Below, piece after piece: positions 33,230 through 41,497 of a stretch of 64,000 nt of DNA (positions within the stretch are counted from its first letter, which is position 1; each line of letters starts with the position of its first letter). The notes under the pieces are model-generated. The model was not told the origin of the DNA, searched no databases, and saw nothing but the letters and a program-made list of their open reading frames with translations. Source of the DNA: Oligoflexales bacterium (GTDB taxonomy: Bacteria > Bdellovibrionota_B > Oligoflexia > Oligoflexales > RGVZ01); NCBI GenBank assembly GCA_947494335.1, contig CANLUT010000002.1:496001-560000 (forward strand). The letters are read 5' to 3'. A program made the translations under genes and the position numbers.

Positions 33230-34708
33230 TTATTGTTTTGAGGAATCTTCGTGGGCGCCTGAGAAGATCGCCATCTTTTTTTCAGTCAGATAGGTTTGTA
33301 CCTCAAGCTTAGTTCTCTGACCGTGAGTAATGTAGACACCGTGGGTATTTTTCCTACGTCCACCATCTGATGTAGTAAACGTATACTGAGCCAAGCGATA
33401 GTAACCGGCGACAAGGGGCATCGTTGTTGGCTTATCAAGCACCATGTCAAGACTGGCTCCCGCTAACCCTCCGCCGTTTGGCTCAACGCGCATTAAGTCA
33501 GTGAGGACCCCTGGTTTAAATGAAGGCGTAGGAATCACCTCAAGAAATCCAACTTTCACTTTTAGGTCGTCCCCAGCACTAAGTTTTAACTTGATGTTGC
33601 GTGATCCTTCGATTCCCAGATCAACGTCTTTTTCCAGAAATAATATCGGACTATCACTTTGTGATTCTGCGAAGTGATAGTTCTTGTCTTTGGCGAACAG
33701 ACGAACTTTTCGTGATCCGAGGCAGGCCCAGTCGTTATCATCACAGCCGAGATCCACGGTCACGTTTCGAGCGTGAATCTTCAAGGTCTCTCCCTCTTCA
33801 ATGTCATAATTTGTCGCACGAAGAGAGGATGCGAGTCTCACGTCAATACTGCCTGGAAGCACTGGATAGGGGGTGTTAAGATCCATAAAATGTTCGCCGT
33901 TAATCTCAGCAAACAGTGGTGCTCCACTGACTTTTTCTGCACGCTCAAGATCAGCATGTTTACTTGTTTCAATGACCAGTGTTCCCGGCTCAACCACACG
34001 GGCTTCACCTTCTCTTAAGTCTACAGTCATTTCGGTTCCGTTAAGTTGCAAATCGTAAGAACCAGAAAGAACATAAAGACGTGACCCTGGGTTTTGGCTT
34101 TCAGTGTACGGATTGATATCGCCAACGGGGGAGACGAAAAACACGTCTGCTGCATCAGGGGTAGCTTTAGCCACAGAGATTGATGAAAGCACGTGACTGA
34201 CCACGCGACTTTCCTTGGTTTCAGCTGGTGAAAGCTCAAGACGAAGTGGAATCATTCCAACTAAGAGATCTCGTGTTCCCGCAAGCACAGCGAGGGAAAA
34301 GTGATTTTGAAGATTTTGACGAGTATGAGTGCGCTCTGATCGCGTGCACTGCACCGAAAACTTGTCTTGGTCGGTTGGTGGCTGCAGCGGGACAAAGTTA
34401 ACGGCGTGAGCTGTCAGCGTAACCTCTGAACTTGGATAGATGTTAACGACCTCGCTGCTACAATCAGCAAGGACCATGTAACTTCCAGGAGGAAGTAGAA
34501 CCTTTTCGTTAAATTTAGCGGTGGTCTCAGAGACAAATTGCAGTGGTTGCTCGCCGGCAATTTTATAAATCTCGTAGCTACCTTGACCAACAAAGTTGAC
34601 CTGGAGTCCGCCTCTTGACGACGAACCTCGCTGGCATGACATTAAAGCTGCCGACAAAACTGTCGGCACGAGTAATTTAAATACCAGCGATTTTGAGACA
34701 TGTGTCAT
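33230..34708 (-). CDS. Predicted lipoprotein of unknown function
   Basis: This 492-residue protein has a signal peptide with lipobox LMSC (Cys25) and a short Ser/Arg/Gly linker. The rest is strand-rich with alternating hydrophobic and charged residues (SYMVLADCSSEVVNIYPSSEV region, cysteine pair CDDNDWAC), consistent with several beta-sandwich domains. Repeated LPPGSYMVLAD, LSGSYDLQLNG and VAGYYRLAQYTF segments hint at related PEGA-like or Ig-like units. No catalytic motif was found. AGGCGG lies about 9 bases before the ATG. Confidence 0.75.
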   Translation of the reverse strand: MTHVSKSLVFKLLVPTVLSAALMSCQRGSSSRGGLQVNFVGQGSYEIYKIAGEQPLQFVSETTAKFNEKVLLPPGSYMVLADCSSEVVNIYPSSEVTLTAHAVNFVPLQPPTDQDKFSVQCTRSERTHTRQNLQNHFSLAVLAGTRDLLVGMIPLRLELSPAETKESRVVSHVLSSISVAKATPDAADVFFVSPVGDINPYTESQNPGSRLYVLSGSYDLQLNGTEMTVDLREGEARVVEPGTLVIETSKHADLERAEKVSGAPLFAEINGEHFMDLNTPYPVLPGSIDVRLASSLRATNYDIEEGETLKIHARNVTVDLGCDDNDWACLGSRKVRLFAKDKNYHFAESQSDSPILFLEKDVDLGIEGSRNIKLKLSAGDDLKVKVGFLEVIPTPSFKPGVLTDLMRVEPNGGGLAGASLDMVLDKPTTMPLVAGYYRLAQYTFTTSDGGRRKNTHGVYITHGQRTKLEVQTYLTEKKMAIFSGAHEDSSKQ

Positions 34709-34879
34709 CGGATGTCCGCCTTGTTTTGCTCATCGTACTCAAGAGGTCAGCCATCAGCTAGCTCGATTTTGCGTCAATATAAGGATGGTTAAAAGACTGG
34801 GTCGTCCAACCGCCATTTTTGAAATTAGATTAGTAATTACAGATATTTAAACACTAAGGATGGCTTGCTAAATAGGACT

Positions 34880-35680
34880 TTAGAACACAAATTGAGCAGC
34901 GCCGCCGAGGTTGATCACCGTAAAACCAATGGCCTGCAGTCGAATAAATGGTCCAACTTTTAGTTTATTGGTCATGAGGCTCCAGTCGGCCCCGCTACTG
35001 ACGGCTAAGCTCAAGGAGCCTTTTTTGACGTCACTTGATTCGGGAGCGCCATCTTGGGCTTTGGCGTAAGGGAGGAGATAACCGAGTTCCGCGCCCGCTT
35101 TGACACTCAGATTGGCACCAGCGCGCAAAGGAAGCAAATAGTCAGCTCCCGCGAAGATGCCGTGAAGGGTTACATCATAGTCACGATTTCCTGTGTTCCA
35201 AACACCCGTTAATGGCGCGTAGCGAAGCGTTGCGGCCAGCGGATGATCGTCAGTATTTGCGGTTTTCCAGCGAAAAAACATATCCGTTGCACCAATGCCA
35301 ATCCATGTTCCTTTTGATGGCTTTACTACAGACCAGCCTAAGGCTGTGCCTACGGATAGCCTGTTTTCAACTGTCTTGCTCGCACCACTTCTAGCCTTTG
35401 GTTTTGCTGCAACTTTCTCCGTTGGCGGTGCTTCTTGAGCTTGTTCCGACTCTTCCTGGTCGTCTGCCGTTTGCTTTGCTGGTTTTGATGCTCCTGCAGG
35501 CTTAGCGGTTGCGGGTGCGACCTGCTTTGGAGTCTCAGCTTTTGGTGTCGAAGGGGTTGTTACCTTGTTGGTGGCTGGAGCGGGCTCTGGTTTTTTTGAA
35601 AGCTCATCCAAGCCGGCGGCAAACAGCTGTCCCGACGCTAGCAGGCTGATGAAAAAAGTTGCAATCACTGATGTTTGCAT
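34880..35680 (-). CDS. Predicted outer-membrane beta-barrel protein with Pro/Ala/Lys linker
   Basis: About 266 residues from the ATG at 35680, which has AAGGA 9 bases upstream (a GTG sits two codons earlier). The signal peptide ends in LFAAG. Residues about 30-105 are a low-complexity Pro/Ala/Lys/Thr/Glu linker, likely disordered in the periplasm and perhaps interacting with peptidoglycan. The last 160 residues alternate hydrophobic and polar as in a transmembrane barrel and end in AAQFVF, with the terminal Phe typical of BAM-assembled proteins. It is probably co-transcribed with the upstream barrel gene, 31 bases away. Confidence 0.75.
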   Translation of the reverse strand: MQTSVIATFFISLLASGQLFAAGLDELSKKPEPAPATNKVTTPSTPKAETPKQVAPATAKPAGASKPAKQTADDQEESEQAQEAPPTEKVAAKPKARSGASKTVENRLSVGTALGWSVVKPSKGTWIGIGATDMFFRWKTANTDDHPLAATLRYAPLTGVWNTGNRDYDVTLHGIFAGADYLLPLRAGANLSVKAGAELGYLLPYAKAQDGAPESSDVKKGSLSLAVSSGADWSLMTNKLKVGPFIRLQAIGFTVINLGGAAQFVF

Positions 35681-35711
35681 AGTCACACGTCCTTGTGATT
35701 GTTCAAGACAA

Positions 35712-36833
35712 TTAGAGAATGAGTTTAAGCTGAGCCATGTAGCGACGGTCGGCGGCAGATTCGCTCTCGCCAGCCACTGTTCCGAGCTGCTCGGTGTAAG
35801 TTACAAACCGTAAAATCAACAGCCACAGGTCAAGTTGCAGTCCACCGCTCACGCTACCCTGATGAAGACCAGCCTGAACCTTTAGAGCCTTTGACAGACC
35901 CCACTCGGCACCAAAATTAACCTTTTTTGAGAAGTGAATCGGTTGATTTACAGCATGCACGTCCATGCTCGTTAAAACGTAGTAGGAGCCTGTCTTAATT
36001 GGCTTAAAGCTAATTCCCGTATTAAGGGAAGGCTCTCGTGGCTTTGGTGCTCCAAATTTAAGTTCTCCCATACTCGATGCCTTATACGGTGTCCCGCCGA
36101 TGTCGGTCACACTCATTCCAAAGGTCGGCTCTCCCACTGTTACAGGAGTAAAGAGCATGCCAAGGTCCACGCCAAATCCCGTACCGCCAACGAAGTAGTC
36201 TTTTAGTTGATTGCCACTTGAAGATGTCTGACTTTTAGAGAATGCATTGATATCGGCTAAGCTAAACTCTCGTTCAACACCCTGTTTGTAAACGCCTTTA
36301 ATAGTGGCACCGATGCTGAGGCGATCCTCCAAAAAATTCTTGGCAAAGGCAATTGGGACAATCGCATTTGCGCCAGCGTCCAGATCAGCAGAAATTGTGC
36401 TGCGGTGAATCACCATGCTGCCGCCAATATCAAGTCCAATACCAAGACCAAATCCCGGTAAAATAAAATGTGGGGTGGCACCAAGATTGACCCATTGCGG
36501 TTTCCCCGTCATGGTTTCAAAAACACTCAACGTCGCATCAACACTGCTGGAGTTCGAGGACGCAAGGTTGGTGAAGTCATTGATAGTCTTGAGTGTTGTG
36601 GCGGAAACACCGAGGCGGGGGTTAAATACTTCTAGGCTCCAACTATCGAGGCGCGCCAAGCCAGCAGGATTATAGAATAGTGCGTTGTAATCGTCAGCAA
36701 CGGCAACATAGGCATTGCCCATGGCAAGAGGTCTTAACCCATAATGAGTCCACTTCAATTCACCAGCAGCACTGATATTTGGCATTGATGCTGTACCAAA
36801 CGTAAGTGCCATTAAAATTTTTTTGAAATACAT
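35712..36833 (-). CDS. Outer-membrane beta-barrel protein (FadL/PorV-like family)
   Basis: This 373-residue exported protein has a signal peptide ending near ISAAG. The N-terminus carries LRPLAMGNAYVAVADDYNALFYNPAGLA (seen as LRPLAMGNAYVAVADD and ALFYNPAGLA), the hallmark of the FadL/OMPP1/PorV-like and UPF0164-like barrels, which place a plug segment at the start. Amphipathic strands follow to the end. Family members transport hydrophobic compounds or act as secretion or surface-anchoring components, and the sequence does not decide between these. The divergent TetR gene starts about 150 bases away. Confidence 0.8.
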   Translation of the reverse strand: MYFKKILMALTFGTASMPNISAAGELKWTHYGLRPLAMGNAYVAVADDYNALFYNPAGLARLDSWSLEVFNPRLGVSATTLKTINDFTNLASSNSSSVDATLSVFETMTGKPQWVNLGATPHFILPGFGLGIGLDIGGSMVIHRSTISADLDAGANAIVPIAFAKNFLEDRLSIGATIKGVYKQGVEREFSLADINAFSKSQTSSSGNQLKDYFVGGTGFGVDLGMLFTPVTVGEPTFGMSVTDIGGTPYKASSMGELKFGAPKPREPSLNTGISFKPIKTGSYYVLTSMDVHAVNQPIHFSKKVNFGAEWGLSKALKVQAGLHQGSVSGGLQLDLWLLILRFVTYTEQLGTVAGESESAADRRYMAQLKLIL

Positions 36834-36986
36834 AGTTAAACCTGACCTCGCGTTGATGGTCTAAGAGGAAACGCATTTATGATCGCGTATCCTAATATGC
36901 TACCAAGGTCTTCCTGAGGTTGAAAGTCCCCCCCCTAGGGTGCTACCATCTTATTGAGATTAATGGATAAAATGGGGTGTTTGATC

Positions 36987-37580
36987 ATGTCCAAGCACGA
37001 CGTAGCAGCGGAACGAAAAGAGCAAATCGTAAGAGCAACGGTCGAGTGCATCACAAAGCATGGATACCATAATTTTTCGATGCAGGATGTGGCGCGCACA
37101 GCCGGTGTCAGCAAAGGCATCATTCATTATTATTTTTTGAATAAAGATGAACTGATGATGTGCGTTTTGGATAAAGTTGCCGGCGATATCGAACGTGTTT
37201 TGGGCGAAGAGATGAGCTCCATCTCTGATCCATGGCGTCGATTGGAGATCTTTATTGAGGTTTGTTTCGACATAGTTCGCAACACCAAAGAATACTACCA
37301 GGTCAACATGGACTTCTGGACTCAGATCAATCAGAAAGAAGAGATCAGGAAAGTCATCGCAGCGCATTACGCCAAATTCCGCGAAGCGGCGGCCAAGGTT
37401 ATTCAAGATGGCGTCGACAAAAATGCATTTCGCAAAGTTGATGCAAGTGCTTATGCGTCCTTCGTTATTGCTGTTATCGACGGTCTAAGCTTACAGTGGC
37501 TGTTTGACGGTAAGGTTTTTGACTACTCGCAGATGTCCAAGAAAGCATCCTCTCTGATTCTGAACGGTTTAAAATCCTGA
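36987..37580 (+). CDS. TetR/AcrR family transcriptional regulator
   Basis: This is a DNA-binding repressor of about 197 residues. The N-terminal helix-turn-helix covers FSMQDVARTAGVSKGIIHYYF, seen as FSMQDVARTAGVSK plus GIIHYYFLNKDEL, and the ligand-binding domain follows. I start at MSKHDVAAERKEQIV (ATG at 36987), the usual TetR N-terminus. Three earlier in-frame starts (36954, 36963, 36972) would add up to 11 residues. It lies 10 bases ahead of the TPR gene and at the head of the operon with the thiolase- and FadJ-like genes. Several TetR regulators of this type respond to acyl-CoA, so autoregulation by a fatty-acid signal is a reasonable inference. Confidence 0.88.
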   Translation: MSKHDVAAERKEQIVRATVECITKHGYHNFSMQDVARTAGVSKGIIHYYFLNKDELMMCVLDKVAGDIERVLGEEMSSISDPWRRLEIFIEVCFDIVRNTKEYYQVNMDFWTQINQKEEIRKVIAAHYAKFREAAAKVIQDGVDKNAFRKVDASAYASFVIAVIDGLSLQWLFDGKVFDYSQMSKKASSLILNGLKS

Positions 37581-37590
37581 GGTCGTACTC

Positions 37591-38691
37591 ATGACAAGTC
37601 AGGTTGAATTGATGCCAATCGATCAGGCCTTAGGCCTGGCCGCAAATCCCCGTCAGATTGATTCAGCCGATTATTTACGGGTTCTGGATTCCTTGGAAGC
37701 TCACGAGTGTTGGACCTTGTTCTTTGATTTAGTTCGCGCCAGCATCAAATCCGATCCAAAGGGATCCATTGATAATTTTGTTCGTCTCATCAAGGTGGAC
37801 ATCCTTTATTTGGAGGACGTCAAAGCGGCATCGCAGACGAGTCGAGAGCTGATCCAGTCAAAGAAAATGTCGTTTTCAGATTTCAGAATTCAGGTTCTGG
37901 ACAAGGTTCTTGAGTCTGAAGACTACAAGACCGAGGGCGAACTTCTTACGGGAAGCTGGGAAGTTTTTTCCAAGCGAGAGGATCAGATTGCCGCAGTTGA
38001 AAGACTTTGTTTCATTTTTGAAAAGAAGGCTCACAACGAAAGTTTGCTTCACCAGTTCTACGAACGTTTGCGTAAGATGCAGCCTGATAACGCCAAGGCC
38101 CTTCGTTACTTCAGAAATCTATACTCGCAGTCGCAGGAGTGGTCTGCGGTTATTGATGTTTTAAAGAGACTTCTTTCCTCTGCTAAACATAAGCAAGAGG
38201 TATTTCGCTACGCACAAGAGCTTGCGGCGGTTTATCTGTATCAGCTGGGCGATTGCAGGGAAGCCATTCGCTACATCGAAGAATATTGTGCGGGAAGTAC
38301 GCTTGACACATCGACCATTCACTTTGAAGCGTACTATCGCTTGGGAGATCTTGATGGTTGCCTTAAAGTTTTGAGATCTGCACTGCTCGTGGTTGAAGAC
38401 CCCGAAACAAGGTCAATCGTCCATTTTCGTATTGGAACCATTTACGAGCAGCTTAATCAAACCCAGATAGCTTACGAAAACTATCAAAAGACTCTTGAGC
38501 TCAATGACAACTTTTTTGAAGCCATCGAAGGTCTTATCAGCTGTGCGATTAAACTCAAAAATTGGGTAACGGTGCGCGACTGGCTGATTGTTCTCAGTGA
38601 GAAGACACGTTCGCCTGATTTGGTTGGTCAACTGCGAGCAGGTATCCAGCGGCTTGACGAGGGAATGGCTCATGCAACTGCAGCCCGCTGA
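37591..38691 (+). CDS. TPR-repeat protein
   Basis: This is a soluble protein of 366 residues with no signal peptide. From about residue 150 it is built of tetratricopeptide-type helix pairs, such as AKALRYFRNLYSQSQEWSAVIDVL and GTIYEQLNQTQIAYENYQKTLELN (each seen as two shorter blocks), ending with a pair around NFFEAIEGLISCAIKLKNW. It likely serves as a scaffold. It begins 10 bases after the TetR stop and overlaps the thiolase-like gene by 20 bases, so it belongs to that operon. The N-terminal 140 residues are helical and not recognised. Confidence 0.82.
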   Translation: MTSQVELMPIDQALGLAANPRQIDSADYLRVLDSLEAHECWTLFFDLVRASIKSDPKGSIDNFVRLIKVDILYLEDVKAASQTSRELIQSKKMSFSDFRIQVLDKVLESEDYKTEGELLTGSWEVFSKREDQIAAVERLCFIFEKKAHNESLLHQFYERLRKMQPDNAKALRYFRNLYSQSQEWSAVIDVLKRLLSSAKHKQEVFRYAQELAAVYLYQLGDCREAIRYIEEYCAGSTLDTSTIHFEAYYRLGDLDGCLKVLRSALLVVEDPETRSIVHFRIGTIYEQLNQTQIAYENYQKTLELNDNFFEAIEGLISCAIKLKNWVTVRDWLIVLSEKTRSPDLVGQLRAGIQRLDEGMAHATAAR

Positions 38692-39628
38692 GGCACTTTG
38701 TTTGCCTCTTCAGATAGGTCGTATCGATCTTGTATCTATGCCATCGGATTATTTGCCCCGGAGAATAGATTGGGGCAAATGGCTTGATTGCGTGAACATG
38801 GGTGCGATGGTGATGGGCGACCGGCTGGGCGCGTCTCCGAGAATTAGCGTTTCTCCAGATCATCAAGATGCAAAAGATAATTTGGCTTTGGCCTATTTTC
38901 AGGGCCAAGGCACGCTTGAACAAATTGACCCAGTGACTATTTTTTCTGATGTTACAGATGGTACAAGGTTTATTTTCGTGGGTTCTTGGTCCACTGCGGT
39001 TCCAACCTGGTTCACGAGTGCGCAGTCGATCTTTGCCGCGCAGTATGCATCGCTAATCTCTGACTTTATAGCTCGTCAGTTTCTGCTCTGGGGTCGAACG
39101 GCAGACCGACTTGAGAAAGAGGGCTCATTTCTGGTGACGGACGATCTTGGCCGTCTTTCAGGCTTGTCGTCAATCGGTCGCAGTTGGCGTAATCGTGCTA
39201 TGCGCAGTAGCGTCATGGGAGAGCCACGGTCGGCGTCCTGGCTTGCGGCAATAGTTGACGTCCCAATGGCGCGCTCAGCAAGTGCGGTTGACATGAGGCT
39301 TCATCGTCTGAATGTCATTGAACCGGAGGTGTGGTGCGGTTCGCCAAAGCTTGATGTGGAGATTTCGAGCGCGATGCGCGCTGATGAAGGCTGCCCTGAG
39401 ATTTGGATCTCGGCCCCCAGTGTTGGAGTCGCGTTGTGGATTGCAGAACAGCAATATCCGTTAAATACCGTCTTATCCAAGCTTCATGTTCCGGGAGCAA
39501 TACTTGGCTGGCATCCCGTCAGAGATTTGCTGGCGTTTCTTTCGCGTGCCAAAGACGGAAGTATGTTCTACATGGTGGATCGACAATGTCGGCTGCAAGT
39601 TTTGAAAAAAGATGGTGGGGTACTCTAA
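38672..39628 (+). CDS. Degenerate thiolase-like protein lacking the N-terminal half
   Basis: This is a 318-residue protein that I read as a decayed thiolase (FadA/FadI type). MGDRLGASPRISVSPDHQDA (residues 48-67) follows the thiolase pattern MGxTAE...ISRExQDA. DPVTIFSD comes next. Near the end, VPGAILGWHP (273-282) matches NxxGGAIALGHP with the histidine kept but GHP changed to WHP, and a late cysteine (306) sits where the second catalytic Cys lies. The N-terminal region with the nucleophilic Cys is absent, against about 390-440 residues in active enzymes. The start is ATG at 38672, with AGGG upstream. The assignment rests on pattern matching, so it is moderately sure. Confidence 0.6.
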   Translation: MQLQPAEALCLPLQIGRIDLVSMPSDYLPRRIDWGKWLDCVNMGAMVMGDRLGASPRISVSPDHQDAKDNLALAYFQGQGTLEQIDPVTIFSDVTDGTRFIFVGSWSTAVPTWFTSAQSIFAAQYASLISDFIARQFLLWGRTADRLEKEGSFLVTDDLGRLSGLSSIGRSWRNRAMRSSVMGEPRSASWLAAIVDVPMARSASAVDMRLHRLNVIEPEVWCGSPKLDVEISSAMRADEGCPEIWISAPSVGVALWIAEQQYPLNTVLSKLHVPGAILGWHPVRDLLAFLSRAKDGSMFYMVDRQCRLQVLKKDGGVL

Positions 39629-41497
39629 ATGCAGGACACCATCTCAATTGAAATCGATTGGAACGGGTCTCTTTATGACCCGGCATCTTCAGAATTTGTT
39701 GCGCGGCTTGAGTCAAAATTGGAATCAGCAAATTCGAATACGATCATTTTACTCAGATCAAAAGATGCATGTCATGACTATCACCGGGATTGGCTTGATA
39801 GCATTACATCGAAGCTTTACTGGGAAGATTTAGTCGCCCACTTTCAAAGAGTGCATTTGCTTTTCTTGGGAATTTGTCTGTCAAAGGCCAAATGGTATTT
39901 TATTTCGAGTCACGACTGCCTTGGTTCGTGGTGGGACTTGGCTCTCGCATGTCAGGGGCGAGTTTGGGCAAATCCCTATGCAAAAGTCGGCTTTCCGGAA
40001 GTCTATATTGATATGCTTCCACCGCTCGCAAATGGTGCGCTCCGTCGTTTTGATGCCTATAAGTCTTTGGACGATGTGCGAAAAAATGCGATCTTACACT
40101 CCAAGGATGCATTCACATTAGGATTGATATCTCTGGTTTTACAAGGGCAAAACTGGGCTGACGCCAAAGGGATAGAATCACTTTATGCGTGGATCAAAAA
40201 AAGCCAGACCATCAATAACCTCAGGTCAACAACACGACGGGAGTTGATAGAGGAGACGCCTGATTTGTTGGGTGTTGTCGAGGACCGTTCAACATTGTCT
40301 TTGCGACGAAAACAGATCGCACTCAGTCACTTGGAGACTGGACACAACGCTTTGAGAGAACGCAATATCGGAGCCAGAGCTCTTACAATGAGTCAGATTC
40401 GTGCGGGCTGCGCAGCAAGAGTCTTGTTTGAGGATTATCGCTCATGGCTTTCAAGACGTATATCACGTTACGAAATTGGTTCAAAAGACAGATGGTGGAC
40501 GGCATCTGTGGGCTCAGGTACTTTGGCGGTAGACTTAAGTCGCGGTATCCCCCCGCAGTCAGTCATTTACACGTTACTTGCGCGAAAGATTCGACTATTA
40601 TTGATGGCTCCATCCGAAGAACAGCTTCGAGAATATCTGGAAACCATTCTTAGTCGATCACAAAAAGTCGGTCTTTCCAGAAAAGACCTTCTTACTTCGT
40701 GGCGCGGACGTCTCGACTGGTTTGTGGGTCATGCGAATTCAGTCTCCTCTCTATGGTTGGCTTGCTCGGTTAATGATTTCCTGGAGTTTGGAGTGGGATC
40801 AACGCGCTTGATGACACGTTACCGGCTTTCGGGCAATTTTGGACAAGCAAATCTCGGATGGTGTGAGGCGATTGAGCATTTAGAACCAGCTCAGGAAGCA
40901 TCAGAAAACACTGTTACTTATGCAAACGAATTGGCAGATATTCTGACAAATGGTGTCCTCAGGCAGCAGGGATGGAAACATCCCATTCCTTTGTCAGTGG
41001 CGTTACGCTTTGCGTTGTTAGCTGAAATGGTTGTCTTGTCGGAGACTGGAGCATGGCCTGATGTCGTTGAGCAGTGTAAGTTGCTGGCAAATGCTGGATG
41101 GGGTTTTGCGGGCGATGTACCGCAGTGGGATAGTTTACTTCGCCATTTTGGCAAATCACCCAGTGTCGAGGCGGCCCTTAAAGACCTAGGTTTGCACGAC
41201 TCTCAGTCTTTAAAGGTATCCTCAATTGCCGAGCTTCGGCAGCGTGCTCCAAAGACGGGGCAGGTCAGTAGATTTGAAATTAGCGCGGCCCGGCTCTCAA
41301 GACACTTTGAGGCTTTTGCTGTTCAGGTCGGCGAGAGGATATTGAGCCTCGGCATTGTCGAGGGCACATCTATGGCCGATCTGTATGTGACATTAGCTTG
41401 GGGCTATCCCGGAAAGTCCCTGGTTCCCTCGGAGTTGGTCGGAGCCATGGGGGATGGACGAATTGCTCACTGGCTCGGGCGCGACATCCGGCGCTAA
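39629..41497 (+). CDS. Degenerate FadJ/FadB-like multifunctional protein
   Basis: This 622-residue protein keeps the fatty-acid oxidation alpha-subunit order. A crotonase-like domain (1-190) has SHDCLGSWWDLALACQGR and GFPEVYIDMLPP: the usual GGGxE is GSWWD (99-103), while Glu124 of the PE motif remains. A Rossmann-like region near 291-380 has GSGTLA where the NAD loop GxGxMG should be. Two C-terminal 3-hydroxyacyl-CoA-dehydrogenase-like domains follow (about 448-508, with NAGWGFAGDVPQWD, and 548-622). The catalytic His block HFFxPV is not recognisable. It starts at the base after the thiolase-like stop. A non-catalytic or changed role is the best reading. Confidence 0.65.
   Translation: MQDTISIEIDWNGSLYDPASSEFVARLESKLESANSNTIILLRSKDACHDYHRDWLDSITSKLYWEDLVAHFQRVHLLFLGICLSKAKWYFISSHDCLGSWWDLALACQGRVWANPYAKVGFPEVYIDMLPPLANGALRRFDAYKSLDDVRKNAILHSKDAFTLGLISLVLQGQNWADAKGIESLYAWIKKSQTINNLRSTTRRELIEETPDLLGVVEDRSTLSLRRKQIALSHLETGHNALRERNIGARALTMSQIRAGCAARVLFEDYRSWLSRRISRYEIGSKDRWWTASVGSGTLAVDLSRGIPPQSVIYTLLARKIRLLLMAPSEEQLREYLETILSRSQKVGLSRKDLLTSWRGRLDWFVGHANSVSSLWLACSVNDFLEFGVGSTRLMTRYRLSGNFGQANLGWCEAIEHLEPAQEASENTVTYANELADILTNGVLRQQGWKHPIPLSVALRFALLAEMVVLSETGAWPDVVEQCKLLANAGWGFAGDVPQWDSLLRHFGKSPSVEAALKDLGLHDSQSLKVSSIAELRQRAPKTGQVSRFEISAARLSRHFEAFAVQVGERILSLGIVEGTSMADLYVTLAWGYPGKSLVPSELVGAMGDGRIAHWLGRDIRR

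Follow-up and report, generated by a model that had tools for sequence, protein, structure and literature searches.

Gene content and organisation of the locus

The window analysed here, a stretch of 64,000 nucleotides from an Oligoflexales assembly of 3.34 Mb in 8 contigs, carries a genuine four-gene operon in which all frames are intact, encoding a TetR-family regulator, a TPR-repeat protein, a putative thiolase-fold protein (THL) and a degenerate FadJ homologue (FadJL) (Table 1). The TetR and TPR genes are separated by 10 bp, the TPR and THL genes overlap by 20 bp with the THL ATG lying inside the end of the TPR gene, and the THL stop codon (TAA, 39626-39628) abuts the ATG of FadJL with zero gap, so that the spacing is operon-like across all four genes. 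These positions and spacings bear out the coordinates, gene order, intact frames and tight coupling given in the original prediction. The THL start was set by the TPR overlap, which is conserved in relatives, and not at 38588, where a longer open frame opens with TTG. An LpxC gene lies 220 bp downstream of FadJL.

Table 1. Features of the operon, with positions in the window
Feature	Position	Strand	Basis
Possible sigma70 promoter, TTGAAA-18-TACCAT, TG before the -10 element	36920..36949	+	Consensus scan only
TetR-family regulator (BetI/FadR-like)	36987..37580	+	Pfam
TPR-repeat protein, 366 aa	37591..38691	+	Pfam TPR families
THL, putative thiolase-fold protein without conserved catalytic Cys or His, 318 aa	38672..39628	+	AlphaFold2 and Foldseek
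GWHP motif of THL, residues 279-282	39506..39517	+	Best-conserved motif in the C-terminal part of the family
FadJL, degenerate FadJ (trifunctional enzyme alpha) homologue, 622 aa	39629..41497	+	hhalign, AlphaFold2, Foldseek
Retained crotonase core of FadJL, DCLGSWWDLALAC...GFPE, residues 95-125, acids Asp103 and Glu124	39911..40003	+	Conservation, residue counts
Lost NAD-binding Gly-rich loop of FadJL, residues 298-310, Pro-Pro segment instead	40520..40558	+	Merged alignment
HAD C-terminal helical region of FadJL, residues 451-622, kept as structure; preceding His-Glu segment deleted	40979..41494	+	hhalign and model

The consensus scan that yielded the possible promoter gave no more matches than were found in shuffled sequences. 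A TTGAAA...TGNTANCAT stretch similar to that of the window also lies upstream of the TetR gene in the nearest relative (L128). The relatives named here are MAGs of Oligoflexales (Bdellovibrionota), the nearest being filed as Pseudobacteriovorax antillogorgiicola. On the minus strand (33230-36833), three genes (373, 268 and 492 aa) diverge from the TetR gene and are syntenic with it in most of the order; the first of them gave weak matches to TraF_2 and to FadL/TodX outer-membrane proteins. No operator palindrome shared between TetR and the divergent gene was detected above the level of shuffled sequences.

Profile matches agree with the prediction of a TetR-led operon with a TPR gene. The regulator, of the BetI/FadR type, matched Pfam TetR_N (1.1e-14) and TetR_C_6 (1.7e-15), and the second protein matched Pfam TPR families (down to 2e-7). 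The former scored below the NCBIfam equivalog cut-offs for BetI (98.9 of 201.3 bits) and FadR (83.5 of 200 bits), and by these profile scores it is assignable to the TetR family only, not to the FadR or BetI equivalog. It shares 61-95% identity with its orthologues, with a mean column identity of 66%. TetR is far more conserved (67% median) than the rest of the operon, its ligand-domain stretch EYYQVNMDFWTQINQ included, and it also occurs without the other operon genes. TPR orthologues are found across the class, in 44 of 58 genomes, a wider distribution than that of FadJL. Some genomes without the THL-FadJL pair still have the TetR and TPR genes, so the regulator is independent of the pair. 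In one member of the genus, the TPR gene is split into two frames (L032:2820-3729), by either a frameshift or an assembly error.

FadJL is a full-length relative of FadJ

As a single sequence, FadJL gave no Pfam match and a very weak FadJ match near residues 96-170, and it scored 16 bits against the NCBIfam FadJ equivalog, whose cut-off is 968 bits; among its relatives, Pfam ECH_1 was matched at below 0.01 in 11 of 28. Profile-profile comparison with FadJ from the same genomes using hhalign returned probabilities of 97.7-98.2% (E = 1.3e-12 and 4.5e-14), against 0.1-0.2% for unrelated control families. The alignment runs from end to end, placing FadJL columns 4-621 on FadJ 21-701 and covering the crotonase N-domain and the N and C domains of HAD. 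When the FadJL profile was searched against PDB sequences, the best match was E. coli FadJ, the alpha subunit of the anaerobic trifunctional enzyme (4.6e-14). The AlphaFold2 model (pLDDT 84) had 6ysv_A as its top Foldseek match (E = 2.7e-14), and all 50 matches listed were alpha subunits of trifunctional or multifunctional enzymes. FadJL is a relative of FadJ along its full length; the proposal of a FadJ-like protein with full domain order is thus upheld by both profile search and predicted structure.

The dehydrogenase site of FadJL is lost and the hydratase core is retained

Active sites were surveyed by aligning 28 FadJL proteins together with 16 FadJ proteins, using the catalytic residues described for TFE (in MtTFE, hydratase Glu119/Glu141 and dehydrogenase His462; PMC11301753) and MFE1 (PMC10988713). 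The GxGxxG NAD loop of the dehydrogenase is absent in all 28 FadJL proteins, mostly with a Pro-Pro stretch in its place, and the catalytic His/Glu segment is deleted or unrelated in every one of them, as the original prediction had it for the NAD loop and catalytic His block of the window's protein.

The crotonase core is the best-conserved segment of FadJL, with a mean pairwise identity of 38% versus 16-24% elsewhere. At the first hydratase position (Glu115 in FadJ numbering), Glu is present in 22 of the 28 proteins and Asp in 6, the window having Asp103. At the second position (Glu137), 20 proteins have Glu, 4 have Ala and 2 have Asp, with Gln and Gly in one protein each; the window has Glu124. 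Acids stand at both positions in 22 proteins, 14 of which have the Glu/Glu combination, and the GAD oxyanion segment is not conserved. A natural E-to-A substitution at the second catalytic Glu, seen in the sister genus, occurs in four relatives and matches the rat MFE1 E123A variant, which bound enoyl-CoA and did not hydrate it (PMC10988713). Judged from these residues, the hydratase pocket of FadJL is not clearly dead and may still be catalytic.

THL is predicted to adopt a thiolase fold

Searches with Pfam, NCBIfam, profile-profile comparison and PDB profiles identified no sequence-level relative of THL, nor did subgroup profiles used in place of the diverse alignment, and the protein could not be aligned to FadI by sequence. 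A CrtC lipocalin match of one THL member (E = 0.007) was taken as chance. The template-free AlphaFold2 model (pLDDT 77, pTM 0.82) gave 55 Foldseek matches at E<=0.001 (E = 1.6e-5; probability 1.0 for most; rmsd mostly 7-10 A); among the 50 listed, 48 were thiolases or trifunctional-enzyme beta chains and the other 2 were thiolase-superfamily synthases. The homology to thiolases depends on this moderate model, with a TM of only ~0.5. On structural and positional grounds only, THL looks like a thiolase-fold protein, which means that the earlier label "thiolase-like" finds support in the predicted structure and none in sequence profiles. No Pfam family covers either THL or FadJL.

THL has 318 aa, versus 440 aa in FadI. 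It seems to retain the N-terminal half of the thiolase fold and lacks the nucleophilic Cys together with a large part of the loop domain; the suggested loss of the N-terminal nucleophile region therefore applies to the Cys and not to the N-terminal half as a whole. In the alignment of 27 sequences, no Cys or His column is conserved that would correspond to the two catalytic Cys or to the GHP His. The GWHP motif (G in 21, W in 17 and P in 20 of the 27 sequences, His in only 8) is a possible remnant of the thiolase GHP loop, as suggested by the order of the elements. The description "conserved but dead enzymes" is too strong for the hydratase half of FadJL.

Distribution, divergence and origin of the pair

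A search of 43 Oligoflexales genomes identified FadJL in at least 33; 15 other genomes of the class yielded no convincing FadJL. The one match outside Oligoflexales is limited to the hydratase region of a 714-aa frame and is consistent with an ordinary FadJ. A TetR scan of genome contigs identified 46 loci, most of which keep TetR-TPR-THL-FadJL; gene order and length are retained across the order, and this conservation of the operon is not due to chance. The THL-FadJL pair was lost at L142, L155, L157 and L161 and has shrunk at L158, which lacks TPR and THL, and at L168, where FadJL has only 326 aa; L160 and L167 are also among the loci in which the pair is lost or truncated.

Silvanigrellales-type loci have either TetR-TPR followed by an unrelated protein of 436-452 aa (L164:2522-3832, L165:9806-11161 and L173:9833-11191) or no TPR gene. 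The motifs YYEHSFG and PLHGWDF are conserved in this protein, and no Pfam match was obtained for the two copies tested. In many relatives' operons, FadJL is followed by a pyrF-like gene and then by LpxC. Such a gene (orotidine-5'-phosphate decarboxylase) separates FadJL, or TPR, from the next conserved gene at L033, L036, L039, L043, L045, L142 and L160; it was recognised by eye from the OMP decarboxylase motif DAKRGDISSTM, with one copy confirmed by Pfam. The window has no pyrF-like gene at that place, and a genus member (L129) has an EamA transporter gene instead.

In the closest genus pair, dN/dS was 0.09 for THL and 0.11 for FadJL, versus 0.02-0.04 for TetR and LpxC; only this pair was used because synonymous sites were near saturation in most pairs. 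Across nine matched genomes, median identity was 67% for TetR, 32% for TPR, 15% for THL and 20% for FadJL, with 64% for genuine FadI and 54% for genuine FadJ. Within the genus, purifying selection acts on the pair, at a constraint much weaker than that on the parent enzymes. Together with the order-wide synteny, the dN/dS values support the claim that the pair has been maintained. Partial correlations of evolutionary distance, from which species relatedness was not fully removed, were 0.47 between FadJL and TPR and 0.36 between FadJL and THL, and are suggestive only of co-evolution among the three proteins.

The same genome encodes an ordinary pair of FadI (440 aa) and FadJ (711 aa) elsewhere (L108), and the degenerate pair is therefore an extra copy. 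The genome also has a second HAD/thiolase pair with another domain order (L174); this pair (G000:C5) is an unlikely source, as the dehydrogenase precedes the hydratase in its alpha protein (L174-L181). No catalytically intact ancestor was found among the relatives' copies of the locus: even the longest (685 aa at L158; 683 aa at L189, where a 405-aa protein stands at the THL position) matched neither FadJ nor thiolase domains in Pfam. Given that no intact copy was found at the locus, the dehydrogenase and thiolase sites would most simply have been lost before the order diversified.

Comparison with known systems

THL-FadJL resembles the anaerobic trifunctional enzyme FadI-FadJ (alpha2beta2; E. 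coli 6ysv) in its beta-then-alpha gene order, the full-length homology of the alpha subunit and the predicted thiolase fold of the beta subunit. In contrast to that enzyme, the pair lacks the NAD loop and catalytic His/Glu of HAD as well as conserved thiolase Cys/His, THL is shorter and not sequence-alignable to FadI, and the operon is led by TetR-TPR. A thiolase fold with a changed catalytic set and a partner protein is also seen in the Ltp2/Sal steroid aldolases and TbSLP (PMC12329534), although the partner of Sal is a DUF35 domain rather than a FadJ-like protein, and THL has no conserved catalytic residue set. Rat MFE1 E123A (PMC10988713) is likewise a crotonase-HAD polypeptide with a disabled, enoyl-CoA-binding hydratase, paralleling the natural E-to-A change in the sister genus; unlike FadJL, it was made in the laboratory and its HAD half is active. 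The open-access literature searched yielded no account of a pair like THL-FadJL, with subscription journals largely outside that search, and to this extent the view that it had not been described holds.

Possible function of the THL-FadJL pair

THL and FadJL look like a degenerate alpha/beta pair of the trifunctional enzyme, and the proposed thiolase/FadJ pair, conserved in an operon with TetR and TPR, is supported as a largely non-catalytic one. Since two of the three active sites have been lost while the genes themselves are maintained, the pair probably binds acyl-CoA or performs one partial reaction rather than oxidising fat. The best supported reading, to which we give slightly less than even confidence, sees the two proteins as an alpha/beta complex that does not oxidise but retains an acyl-CoA pocket of the crotonase type. 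Under this reading, they would be an old degenerate second copy of the trifunctional enzyme of fatty-acid oxidation, present across Oligoflexales. THL and FadJL would still associate as an alpha/beta complex, and the FadJL pocket would still bind enoyl- or 3-hydroxyacyl-CoA. Instead of oxidising, the complex would serve lipid metabolism by binding acyl-CoA, by regulation or as a scaffold, possibly via the TPR protein, and would work beside the genuine FadIJ of the same genome. Acyl-CoA sensing by the putative complex is plausible. A more specific proposal, which we regard as tentative and rather unlikely, is an order-wide pseudo-trifunctional enzyme, a heteromeric complex in which a dead thiolase joins a dead dehydrogenase whose fused crotonase pocket is live or ligand-binding, and which would serve, with TPR and the conserved TetR, as an acyl-CoA sensor or scaffold controlling lipid metabolism.

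FadJL could alternatively still be an enzyme, a crotonase-type hydratase, isomerase or related lyase of single activity, with the dead HAD half and the thiolase as structural parts. An acid at the first catalytic position in all 28 proteins and at both positions in most, the conservation of the crotonase core, the ECH_1 matches and the precedent of active thiolase-fold proteins with altered catalytic residues, such as the steroid aldolase Sal (PMC12329534), all favour this possibility, but the window's genus has Asp for the first Glu and the sister genus has Ala for the second, the GAD oxyanion segment is unconserved, and without HAD and thiolase activities the product would be left to other enzymes; on balance, we consider it a possible though less probable explanation. 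The pair might also be a functionless relic that is eroding under weak constraint while the operon around it stays conserved. Its very fast divergence and its loss or truncation at eight loci also fit weak constraint, whereas every full-length copy has intact frames, dN/dS is ~0.1 in the closest pair and a frame of ~620 aa has stayed in position in many families of the order; we consider decay unlikely. That THL is no thiolase derivative at all, leaving FadJL as the sole degenerate enzyme, would explain the failure of all THL sequence searches; the almost exclusive matching of its template-free model to thiolases and its position directly upstream of FadJL, as fadI is of fadJ, render this improbable. 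Least credible is inhibition or tuning of the genuine FadIJ through mixed alpha/beta complexes with dominant-negative subunits, for although FadIJ is present in the same genome and both subunit types are mimicked, FadJL and THL are so highly diverged that cross-binding surfaces are doubtful.

The locus is of interest in that most catalysis appears to have gone from both subunits of one metabolic complex, while their genes have remained neighbours throughout an order. Should the pair bind acyl-CoA, it would represent a bacterial acyl-CoA sensor or scaffold made out of the very enzyme of oxidation, and a clear example in which to study how an enzyme complex is turned to another use. For annotation, genes of this kind, for which a weak hydratase match is the sole clue, should not be assigned to beta-oxidation enzymes.

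In one relative that lacks the TPR gene (L153:11505-13348), THL-FadJL is followed by etfB/etfA-like genes, EtfA being identified by Pfam and EtfB by eye; these electron-transfer flavoprotein genes provide a contextual link of the pair to fatty-acid oxidation.
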